From positions 1 to 33,715 of the forward strand of contig CACYHX010000024.1 in the NCBI GenBank assembly GCA_902774365.1: a stretch of DNA of 33,715 nt, in the 5' to 3' direction. Of this stretch, positions 8,625 to 11,537 are shown in pieces. The position numbers were made by a program, and so were the translations under genes. How positions within the stretch are numbered: position 1 is the stretch's first letter; the number at the start of each line of letters is the position of its first letter. Below the pieces are notes generated by a model that was not told the DNA's origin, did not search any database, and saw nothing but the letters and a program-made list of their open reading frames with translations. The DNA is from an uncultured Bacteroidia bacterium. GTDB lineage: Bacteria > Bacteroidota > Bacteroidia > Bacteroidales > F082.

Positions 8625-11465
8625 ATGAAACATCGACTTCTATTCTTCCTTGCGAGTGCAGCAACAGCCCTGTTTCTCTTCGCCTGTAGCAACAACATCA
8701 CCATCACCATCACCCACCCCAACGTGGAGCAACAATTCCACGAGCAGCCTTTGGCCACGGCACACCCGCGCTTTAGTTGGAATTATGAAACCACCGAAAA
8801 CGAGGTGGTGCAACAAAGTTACCGCATCATCGTGGCCTCAACCGCCGAAAACGCCCAAAATGGCCTCGGTGACCTTTGGGATTCAGGCGTGGTGCCTTCC
8901 AACCAGATGCTTTACATCCCATACGCGGGCAAGGAACTCCAAAGCCGCGACAAAGCCTATTGGAAAGTCATCACAACAGTAGCCGACAAGGGCAAAAGAG
9001 CCAAAGTGGAAAGCGAAGTCAAATCGTTTGAAATCAGCTTGTTGAACCAAGACGACTGGCAAGCCCAATGGATTGGCCATGAGTTTGAGGACGATGTGCT
9101 GGTAGGTAAAACCCGCTTGGCTGCCCGTTATCTTCGCAAAGACCTTGCACTCAAGGGCGAAGTTGCCGATGCAAGGCTATATGTCAGTGGCATGGGCGTG
9201 TATAGTGCCTACCTCAATGGACGGGAAATCGCGCCCGAGGAACTGCTGAAACCTACCCTTTCCTGGTACTCAAGTCGAGTGTACTTCAATACTTATTGTG
9301 TAACAGATTTGTTACACTTTGGAGACAACGCCATCGGCATCATCCTCGAAGGCGGTCGTTATACAAGCATCCGCTACAACGAAGCCAATCCCAACTGGGA
9401 CGGCACTAACCACGTGTTTGGCTTCGGCACACCGCGCCTACTTTTGCAACTCGAAGTGACCTACAAAGACGGCCAGAAAGAGACCATCGTCAGCGATGAG
9501 ACCTGGAAAATCACCAACCGTGGCCCTATCCGTACCGCCAACGAATGGGATGGCGAGACCTACGACGAAAACTTTGAGTTTACACCCGCATGTCATTCCG
9601 AGGATTTAATCGGCATAGATACACTCGCCTCGAAGGCTCGGTATGACATGCCGATTAAATCCGAAGCGAATCTATGCGGGTGGGCAGAATCAGGCTATGA
9701 CGACAGTGAGTGGCTCCAAGCCGAACTCGTAGAAGCCCCCGAAGGTCAGCTCTCCGCCCAGCCTAACCCCAACATCACTGTGATGGAGAAGCTGAAACCC
9801 GTCAGCCTGTTCCAAAAAGGCGACAAATGGTACCTCGACATGGGCCAAAACATGGTCGGCTTTATCGACATGAAAGCACGAGGACAACAACCTGGCGACA
9901 TCATCACCCTGCGCTTCGCCGAACTCCTGACTCCCGACAGCCTTCTCTATACCGCCAACCTACGCAGCGCGGAATGTACGGATCGATACATCGTCACTAA
10001 CAACTCTCAACTTTCAACTGACTCTAAACTCTCAACTCTAAACTCTGAACTCCACTGGCATCCGTTGTTCGTCTACCACGGCTTCCGCTACGTTGAAATC
10101 TCCGGCCTACGCGAGACGCCCGATTTGGACGACTTCGAGGGCTGGGTCATCTACGACGAGATGCCCGTGACCGGCTCGTTTGAGACCTCCAACGAAATCA
10201 TCAACGCGGTGTACCACAACGCCTACTGGGGCATCCGCGGCAACTACCGCTCCATGCCCACCGACTGCCCGCAACGCGACGAGCGTTTGGGCTGGACGGG
10301 CGACCGCACCACGGGCAACTTCGGCGAGTCGTACATCTTCGACAACCACCAACTCTACGCCAAGTGGCTCTCCGATGGCGACGACAGCCAATGGGACAAC
10401 GGCTCGCTGCCCAACATCGTCCCGCCCTACTGGCGCGGCTACACCGACAACATGACCTGGCCCGGTGCCATGGTCACCGTCACAGATATGCTTTATATCC
10501 GCTTCGGCGACACTGAACCCATTCGTCAACACTATGCGGCTTGGAAGAAGTGGATGCTTCACATGAAGAACGACTATATGAGAGCTGGCCTCATGCCTCG
10601 CGACACCTACGGCGACTGGTGCATGCCGCCCGAGAGCCTCGAACTCATCCACTCCAGCGACCCCAACCGCATCACCGAGTCGACGGTCATCTCCACGCCG
10701 TTCTACTGCTACCTCTGCGGAAAGATGGCCAAGTTTGCCGAGATTTTGGGCTTCGATGACGATGTGGCATTCTTCAACCAAGAAATCACCACTACCACCA
10801 TCGCCTTCAACGACAAGTATTTCAACCGCGTGACGGGCGTCTACGCCAACAACACCGTCACGGCTAACATCTTGCCTTTGTGGTTCGGTATGGTACCCAA
10901 AGGTTTGGAAAACAAGGTTTTGGAAAGCATCGTCGACAAGACGATGAACGAATGTGGCGGTCACGTGTCGACCGGTGTCATCGGCATCCAGCAGCTGATG
11001 CGCTGCCTGACGGAATACGGTCGTGGCGACCTCGCCCTCAAGATTGCCTCCAACGACACCTACCCAAGCTGGGGCTACATGGTTCGCAACGGCGCCACCA
11101 CCATCTGGGAGCTGTGGAACGGCAACACCGCCGACCCCGCCATGAACTCAGGCAACCACGTGATGCTGCTCGGCGACCTCATCCTCTGGGAATACGAATA
11201 CCTCGGTGGCATCCGCGCCCTTGAGCCGGGCTACAGCAAGATACAACTCAAGCCTTATCCCATTGAAGGACTGGACTTTGTCAACTGCACCTACAACTCC
11301 GTTTCAGGTCGCATCGAAAGCCACTGGAAACGTGAGGGAAACCATTTTGAATGGGACATCGTCATCCCTGCCAACACCACGGCTGAGGTCTGTCTGCCCA
11401 CGGCAAATGGCTACGAGGTCAAGACCTACGGCAGCGGAAAATACCATCTGTCGTCGGAACTGTAA
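8625..11465 (+). CDS. GH78 alpha-L-rhamnosidase lipoprotein with in-frame repeat insertions
   Basis: The enzyme (946 residues from the ATG before the lipobox LFLFAC) is predicted to be a lipoprotein hydrolysing terminal alpha-L-rhamnose. An in-frame ATG 18 bp upstream is less likely because it would delay the signal sequence. The order is N-terminal beta domains (YLNGREIAP, AIGIILEGGRY), a domain with YHGFRYVEISG, then the (alpha/alpha)6 barrel with DCPQRDERLGWTGD. Asp547, Asp552/Glu553 and Glu829 (TTIWELWNG) match the catalytic acidic residues of GH78. Two loops look foreign: residues ~320-352, encoded by a ~100-bp palindrome, and residues 459-476, encoded by AACTCTC-type heptamers. Both precede the catalytic barrel, so activity is probably retained. 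The gene links polymer breakdown to the rha operon upstream. Confidence 0.93.
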   Translation: MKHRLLFFLASAATALFLFACSNNITITITHPNVEQQFHEQPLATAHPRFSWNYETTENEVVQQSYRIIVASTAENAQNGLGDLWDSGVVPSNQMLYIPYAGKELQSRDKAYWKVITTVADKGKRAKVESEVKSFEISLLNQDDWQAQWIGHEFEDDVLVGKTRLAARYLRKDLALKGEVADARLYVSGMGVYSAYLNGREIAPEELLKPTLSWYSSRVYFNTYCVTDLLHFGDNAIGIILEGGRYTSIRYNEANPNWDGTNHVFGFGTPRLLLQLEVTYKDGQKETIVSDETWKITNRGPIRTANEWDGETYDENFEFTPACHSEDLIGIDTLASKARYDMPIKSEANLCGWAESGYDDSEWLQAELVEAPEGQLSAQPNPNITVMEKLKPVSLFQKGDKWYLDMGQNMVGFIDMKARGQQPGDIITLRFAELLTPDSLLYTANLRSAECTDRYIVTNNSQLSTDSKLSTLNSELHWHPLFVYHGFRYVEISGLRETPDLDDFEGWVIYDEMPVTGSFETSNEIINAVYHNAYWGIRGNYRSMPTDCPQRDERLGWTGDRTTGNFGESYIFDNHQLYAKWLSDGDDSQWDNGSLPNIVPPYWRGYTDNMTWPGAMVTVTDMLYIRFGDTEPIRQHYAAWKKWMLHMKNDYMRAGLMPRDTYGDWCMPPESLELIHSSDPNRITESTVISTPFYCYLCGKMAKFAEILGFDDDVAFFNQEITTTTIAFNDKYFNRVTGVYANNTVTANILPLWFGMVPKGLENKVLESIVDKTMNECGGHVSTGVIGIQQLMRCLTEYGRGDLALKIASNDTYPSWGYMVRNGATTIWELWNGNTADPAMNSGNHVMLLGDLILWEYEYLGGIRALEPGYSKIQLKPYPIEGLDFVNCTYNSVSGRIESHWKREGNHFEWDIVIPANTTAEVCLPTANGYEVKTYGSGKYHLSSEL
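9583..9682. repeat. Nested palindromic element inserted in frame in the rhamnosidase gene
   Basis: An outer perfect stem CACCCGCAT (9583-9591) pairs with ATGCGGGTG (9674-9682). An inner perfect 15-bp stem GGATTTAATCGGCAT (9602-9616) pairs with ATGCCGATTAAATCC (9648-9662), and a third small stem GCCT/AGGC sits in the loop. The ~100 bp is translated as a Cys-flanked loop (from ACHSED to EANLC) between the conserved beta-strand region and the GWAESGYDDSEW motif. Confidence 0.8.
9999..10052. repeat. AACTCTC-type heptamer repeat inside the rhamnosidase gene
   Basis: Degenerate heptamers (AACTCTC, AACTTTC, AACTCTC, AACTCTA, AACTCTG) run through 54 bp and are read in frame as residues 459-476, including QLSTDSKLSTLNSEL. 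The run sits between DRYIV and HWHPLFVYHGFRYVE, which are normally joined by a shorter turn in GH78 enzymes. Confidence 0.8.
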
Positions 11466-11485: not shown

Positions 11486-11537
11486 AAAAATGCCTGCCTA
11501 TAGATTCCCGAGGGAATGACATAGACAGGCATTTTTT
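11486..11537. terminator. Bidirectional terminator between rhamnosidase and DUF1232 genes
   Basis: AAATGCCTG-CTAT pairs with ATAG-CAGGCATTT and is flanked by an A run on the left and a T run on the right, so it serves both convergent genes. The loop contains a second perfect hairpin, ATTCCC-GA-GGGAAT (11503-11516). Confidence 0.85.

Follow-up and report, generated by a model that had tools for sequence, protein, structure and literature searches.

The GH78 alpha-L-rhamnosidase gene in the stretch of DNA analysed here (33,715 nucleotides (nt) of contig CACYHX010000024.1 from an uncultured Bacteroidia bacterium, hereafter the window) contains an in-frame copy of a dispersed palindrome that is abundant in one subset of a genus of rumen Bacteroidales. 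The element consists of two TGTC-tagged hairpin units, one nested inside the other. Such units are dispersed in the genome to which the window belongs (designated G000; other genomes and loci carry G and L numbers), where most of them are flanked by complementary arms, and several lie in frame within genes whose homologues lack the insert. At single loci, units occur in opposite orientations in different species, and arms change yet remain complementary. In our view, these observations make it fairly probable that the unit is a repetitive extragenic palindromic (REP)-type mobile hairpin that enters the tips of hairpins, often those of terminators, and that its arms are perfected by fold-back copying.

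A preliminary description of this DNA, made from the letters alone, had pointed to a nested palindrome at 9583-9682 with a 9-base pair (bp) outer stem, a 15-bp inner stem and a core stem, all inside a continuous GH78 reading frame. Each of these features was confirmed in the sequence. The outer stem (CACCCGCAT/ATGCGGGTG at 9583-9591/9674-9682) and the inner stem (9602-9616/9648-9662) are both perfect, and there is a small core, GCCT/AGGC. Folding of 140 nt around the palindrome gives -53.9 kcal/mol, compared with -33.8 on average (sd 3.7) for 200 dinucleotide shuffles, none of which is as low (z -5.4). The palindrome is translated as TPACHSEDLIGIDTLASKARYDMPIKSEANLCGW, with one Cys near either end. 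What the preliminary description did not contain is the nesting of two like units, their position at hairpin tips and a second unit in the window at 11500-11522. The features of the window are as follows (strand given where assigned):

8625 to 11465, plus strand: GH78 alpha-L-rhamnosidase gene with the element in frame; five Pfam rhamnosidase domains, continuous open frame.
9583 to 9588: left locus-specific arm CACCCG, pairing with 9677-9682 (from sequence and fold).
9589 to 9676, plus strand: 88-nt composite element, with outer unit CATGTCATTCCGAG...GAAGCGAATCTATG and the inner palindrome nested in it; present whole in G024 and G003 at the GH78 site.
9602 to 9616: left half of the inner 15-bp stem, pairing with 9648-9662.
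9614 to 9650, minus strand: inner unit CATAGATACACTCGCC...GGCTCGGTATGACATG, in the opposite orientation to the outer unit; its minus strand fits the unit pattern TGTCATNCCN{2,32}GNATCTA at 9616-9648.
9648 to 9662: right half of the inner 15-bp stem, pairing with 9602-9616.
9677 to 9682: right locus-specific arm CGGGTG, pairing with 9583-9588 (from sequence and fold).
11486 to 11536: terminator-like hairpin 3′ of GH78, made up of an A-tract, a GC stem and a T-tract; its tip (11500-11522) is a minimal unit, ATAGATTCCCGAGGGAATGACAT.

Dispersal of the palindrome, raised earlier as a possibility, was borne out by nucleotide search. With the 100-nt palindrome as query, G000 gave 61 matches at E ≤10 (a count that takes in the window's own copy and two overlapping pairs), 31 of them at E <0.001. 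In the aligned copies, the outer unit surrounds a variable stem, followed inwards by an inner unit, CATAGATACACTC...CGGTATGACATG, that usually has the opposite orientation. The 88-nt composite recurs at other G000 loci with 85-93% identity, and was found (E ≤1e-10) in 10 of 100 relatives, every one of the same genus. A minimal form, ATAGATTCCCnnGGGAATGACAT, also stands alone, as it does once in the window. Scanning a collection of species genomes for this form, with records of the window's own genome possibly excluded, returned 73 stretches, whose titles are all Bacteroidales bacterium, Bacteroidia bacterium or 'bacterium F082' and in several cases mention rumen or abomasum. Counted by the unit pattern, which itself demands TGTC, there are 82 units in G000, 84 in G024, 81 in G019, 78 in G021 and 76 in G031, while 0 to 5 were found in 40 of 60 same-genus genomes and in all 40 genomes of other genera; in a sample of the phylum (296 genomes), other genomes reach up to 19 units. 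The reversed pattern, serving as a control, occurs nowhere in G000 and at most twice per strand in any genome.

Each unit forms a hairpin of the type TGTC-ATNCC...GGNAT-CTA, or its reverse. The minimal unit, ATTCCC-nn-GGGAAT, has a 6-bp stem and a 2-nt loop, and the larger units (29-42 nt) have imperfect stems. The TGTC tag is present in all 82 units, as the pattern requires, and was seen independently in the copies from the 100-nt search, in which stems start AT...AT; the CTA tail is in part dictated by the search pattern. At the stem position written N in the pattern, the two bases are complementary in 80 of 81 units, and all four pair types occur. CA directly precedes TGTC in 66 of 81 units; flanks further out vary. 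A single-copy or GH78-specific oddity is ruled out by the 61 matches and 82 units in G000, and an assembly artefact was rejected because the same inserts recur at shared sites in several genomes.

Besides this nested form, G000 has a second composite type, consisting of 38-42 nt units that lie close together as inverted pairs and whose arms recur (GCCTCCC/GGGAGGC; forms like CAGAAAGCA/TGCTTTCTG), at the following sites:

C1:17876-18565, C3:32418-32668, C9:17990-18093, C30:64745-64864 and C51:10690-10818.

Comparison with homologues identifies the GH78 segment as an insertion. GH78 homologues were matched in 57 of the 100 relatives, and most of the same-genus matches are interrupted at residues 325 and 356. 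In an alignment of 30 fetched loci (the window gene and 29 same-genus homologues), the 31-residue segment is absent from 26 of the 29, none of which aligns through it without a gap. The full element is present in two homologues (G024 and G003), and a third, G007, carries a shortened version there, CATGTCATTCCGATGGGAATCTATG; between a shared F and W, the insert measures 31 residues in the window gene and 11 in G007. The preliminary description had placed the Cys-flanked loop where GH78 proteins have a short connection, in agreement with the solved GH78 structure 6i60: its matching parts end at chain residue 309 and restart at 311, leaving one residue between them, and the insert thus sits in a minimal connection. 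A predicted structure of the GH78 protein (mean pLDDT 51.7) was too poor and was not used.

Similar insertions are found in many other genes. Of 81 placed units in G000, 27 lie within mechanically called frames of at least 150 residues, and 14 Pfam-named genes carry units in frame: GH78, GH77, alpha-amylase, aroA (two exact units and one degenerate), HemN, biotin ligase, an ArsP_2 permease, an ABC transporter, an FAD-linked oxidase, UvrA, PrmC, a radical-SAM protein, an HsdR N-terminal domain and the C-terminal end of a GHMP kinase. Left out of this list are a DUF6395 match below cut-off (L022) and the N-terminal cases aroB and aroC, where the unit may lie upstream of the true start. Units are read in several frames and on both strands, yielding peptides with IDTL, MSYR, CHSE or HVIP. 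Nine inserts besides GH78 were searched in ten same-genus genomes. Seven of these (GH77, biotin ligase, ABC transporter, UvrA, PrmC, radical SAM and HemN) are missing from at least one homologue, the match breaking around the unit; the FAD oxidase match is broken in G025 only, and the 8-residue ArsP_2 insert caused no break in any of the ten. The amylase insert is present in G000 and absent in G024, G019, G031 and G007, which makes this insertion look recent.

Some of these genes show further variation. Where G000 has the amylase insert, the G007 gene (L122) lacks a unit but shows a 14-bp palindrome that is perfect and has a 3-nt loop. The aroA gene (L016; orthologues L139-L145) has three hairpins in G000, which are absent in G056 and G007, and in G003, G031, G019 and G021 other unit forms lie at roughly this position. 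In the GH77 (L007) and L003 elements, the outer half-unit holds a 24-nt mini-insert (AAATGCTTTGCATTCG.CG.AG.C), and species differ in having it (L137, L138, L175, L176).

The position of the units at hairpin tips was assessed by their flanks, with arms defined as at least 8 bp of complementary flank with at most one mismatch. Arms flank 70 of 81 G000 units, compared with 5.8% when flanks were re-paired among units; the 70 comprise 61 distinct arm pairs. For distinct minimal units from many species, the figures are 68 of 70 armed against 9.7% after re-pairing, and the perfect arms have a median length of 11 bp. Not all of the units counted are independent, given the related stems of inner units, the recurrence of some arms and orthology among some minimal units. 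Many arms consist of an A-tract, a GC stem and a T-tract, and so resemble bidirectional terminators. After GH78, several relatives carry units in such stems, the loops differing from one relative to another, whereas the terminators of G010 and G029 are plain.

Across related genomes, one and the same site can be found occupied, empty, nested or reversed, and having these four states within one genus makes insertion and arm formation readable stepwise. At the GH78 site, G007 reads GACCTCGTTTCACCTG-unit-CAGGTGGAACGAGGTC, with the left arm equal to the inverted right flank at 15 of 16 positions. Among the unoccupied sites, G021 and G031 have GACCTCG directly followed by GCGATTGG, and G033 has GATTTAGGCAGATGGAACGAGGTC. 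Judged against these sequences, G007 seems to have kept an old right flank and to have gained most of its left arm, and the arm looks as though it was joined at a short inverted repeat that was already present. At L019, CCTTCA is already found in the unoccupied G007 sequence, and the left GAAGG seems new. At L015, the hairpin is bare in G024 and G019 (at least 17 bp with a 3-nt loop), holds a minimal unit in G021, and in G000 has a nested unit in its loop. The GH77 site lies in coding DNA, and here the arms vary between species with complementarity kept. Reversed copies were found at four sites in total: the whole element at L002 (G024 relative to G000 and G019), the inner unit at L013 (G003) and L020 (G024), and the terminator unit between G021 and G042.

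Elements also change more slowly than their surroundings. With three reversed pairs excluded, 20 differences were counted in 1282 element positions versus 216 in 3191 flank positions, i.e. about fourfold slower change in elements (G024, 16/923 vs 107/2191; G003, 4/235 vs 82/600; G019, 0/124 vs 27/400). The GH78 element has no differences in G024 and one in G003 over 102 nt, compared with 273 and 443 in the remaining 2703 nt of the gene (10% and 16%). Together with the covariation at the N pair, this slow change points to a constraint on, or correction of, folded DNA or RNA.

Several points weigh against entry into hairpin tips followed by templating of the arms. The absence of arms from all 46 TGTC units of other genomes (11 of G035 and 35 of other Bacteroidota), which ties arms to the unit type of this genus and speaks for that reading, was scored in units hand-picked from listed places. 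In G000, 11 of the 81 units have shorter arms, and one (the third unit of aroA) has none. Some arms recur (GAAGG/CCTTC, GCCTCCC/GGGAGGC and the stem around inner units), suggesting that arms in part travel with units, and at L010 and L003 both arms seem new or not polarisable, as if brought by the unit. In addition, the reversed copies could be independent insertions in the other orientation, and the slow change of elements could result from recent transfer or from exchange among copies.

In the reading that we nevertheless favour, units would be copied into the loops of hairpins formed in single-stranded DNA, with terminators, chance inverted repeats in genes and older units as the probable targets; nesting would follow from older units serving as targets for new ones. 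One flank would then template the other by fold-back (quasipalindrome) synthesis, resulting in perfect arms, and copies that preserve the frame in tolerant loops would survive by selection. A bolder idea of how the unit moves, which we hold to be less likely than not, is that it needs no dedicated transposase and that fold-back template switching copies it into hairpin tips while the lagging strand is synthesised or DNA is repaired. If this is true, every copy provides a new tip for the next; palindromes then grow inwards by nesting and outwards by the templating of arms, can flip where they stand, and are translated where they are in frame.

Several known systems share part of these properties. 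Like the units described here, Rickettsia palindromic elements (RPEs) are palindromes translated in frame within unrelated genes; we know of no nesting or hairpin-tip position among them. RPEs belong to another phylum, and their link to the units runs solely via the superfamily outlined in the parts of PMC3733652 considered here, where RPE-4 and RPE-6 are counted among the CGTC repeats. The CGTC repeats characterized in those parts are tagged by a terminal CGTC, TGTC or CCTC and have 8-9 bp stems beginning with AT, 4-5 nt loops and an unpaired, mostly CCA-like tail, with head-to-head dimers as their usual arrangement; there are in-gene copies, including in uvrA of other species, and some REPs lie inside palindromes, in few families and with a consensus per family (PMC3733652). 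The units resemble these repeats in their TGTC tag, AT stem start, short tail, hairpin form, high copy number and occasional location in genes, but differ in their 6-bp stem and 2-nt loop, in a CTA rather than CCA tail (as found with a search pattern that partly fixes it), in their nested composites and in arms that are mostly locus-specific. Because the minimal stem and loop are shorter, the unit was not assigned to any of the four CGTC families set out there. It works like the CGTC/TGTC repeats and is probably a derivative of them in this genus. In-gene palindromes of this sort are thus not new in principle, since the CGTC/TGTC repeats include RPE-4 and RPE-6.

The preliminary description had proposed, should the element be dispersed, a new family of coding palindromes, with no description known to it in this phylum. 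Its dispersed and in-frame character stands, while its novelty has to be narrowed: the unit resembles a known kind of repeat, and Bacteroidetes are among the phyla named for CGTC repeats in the same parts of PMC3733652. For this genus, a literature search by titles and abstract starts found no palindromic elements described, and found no report of hairpin-tip units with mostly locus-specific arms, of nesting among such units, of reversal at one locus, of both arms changing together or of these host genes. In the passages covered of a 2025 REP survey (PMC12306157), there are no nested or in-gene cases. Insertion of palindromic repeats into each other is described for Volvox organelles (PMC2670323), and long palindromes within coding genes for Nematomorpha mitochondria (PMC6649704); both systems are organellar, and the nematomorph repeats, in the parts considered, are not a dispersed sequence family. 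Our observations add many housekeeping genes of Bacteroidota to the range of coding palindromes, and offer a possible cause of unexpected additional residues in proteins predicted from rumen metagenomes.

An alternative that we regard as doubtful is that a hairpin-recognising Y1 transposase (IS200-like, or a REP-associated tyrosine transposase (RAYT)) acts in trans to move the units as REPs, the tips being merely its single-stranded targets. Y1 transposase genes occur in G000, and among same-genus genomes (G035 left out) a Y1 match was found in 14 of 14 unit-rich versus 14 of 21 unit-poor genomes (Fisher two-sided p 0.027, ignoring kinship and genome completeness); this weak association is why action in trans is kept as a rival. 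However, when 22 Y1 loci were examined (six from unit-rich genomes), none had a unit within 1.5 kb, and Y1 is also found in the 14 unit-poor genomes. Furthermore, no Y1 match was found in G035, a genome that is 76% complete and contains 13 classical-type units. The GTAG REPs associated with RAYTs are likewise short dispersed hairpins, some within genes, but their GTAG tag is absent from the units. The published CGTC repeats, too, have no transposase of their own or adjacent to them, and their mode of movement was left open in 2013, according to the parts of that report considered (Di Nocera 2013, PMC3733652).

A further difference between genomes concerns sbcD, a match to which above the curated cut-off is missing from 10 of 19 unit-rich versus 10 of 40 unit-poor same-genus genomes (Fisher p 0.045), with unit-rich set at 10 or more units after the data had been seen, kinship ignored and genomes incomplete. 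G035 was excluded on account of its classical-type units. Given this post hoc threshold, kinship and incompleteness, loss of sbcD as the reason that palindromes are tolerated is a lead only. No unit inside sbcD that would account for its split matches was present in 13 sequences examined (that of G030 being a neighbouring frame and uninformative).

It is unlikely that the hairpin is kept primarily as an RNA structure (a terminator tip or an mRNA-stabilising REP), with the arms being selected terminators and in-gene copies by-products. The terminator-like arms, the varied-loop units in the post-GH78 terminators of several relatives and the covarying stem pair would all fit such a role, but arms also surround in-gene units (GH77, the first aroA unit, ArsP_2 and the ABC transporter), where a terminator would harm, while the plain terminators of G010 and G029 and the 46 armless units from elsewhere likewise speak against it. 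That the GH78 palindrome was made in place by local quasipalindrome correction alone, with no mobile sequence, is very improbable: the locally templated look of arms at some sites and the unit-free palindrome in the G007 amylase gene are in its favour, but recurrence of the 88 nt elsewhere and an amylase unit in G000 that its near relative G024 lacks refute it as the origin of the unit itself, and local correction is retained for the arms within the favoured reading.

In the window, the GH78 gene is preceded by a rhamnose-utilisation cluster (GH97, FGGY kinase, RhaA, an MFS transporter and a class II aldolase). The gene also contains a second in-frame repetitive stretch at 10002-10044 (NNSQLSTDSKLSTLNSEL), the length of which varies among homologues, and in UvrA a stretch after the unit, SQLNNSKLNNSQLNNSKLSTLNSQL, resembles this repeat. 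The two may represent another class of in-frame repeat.

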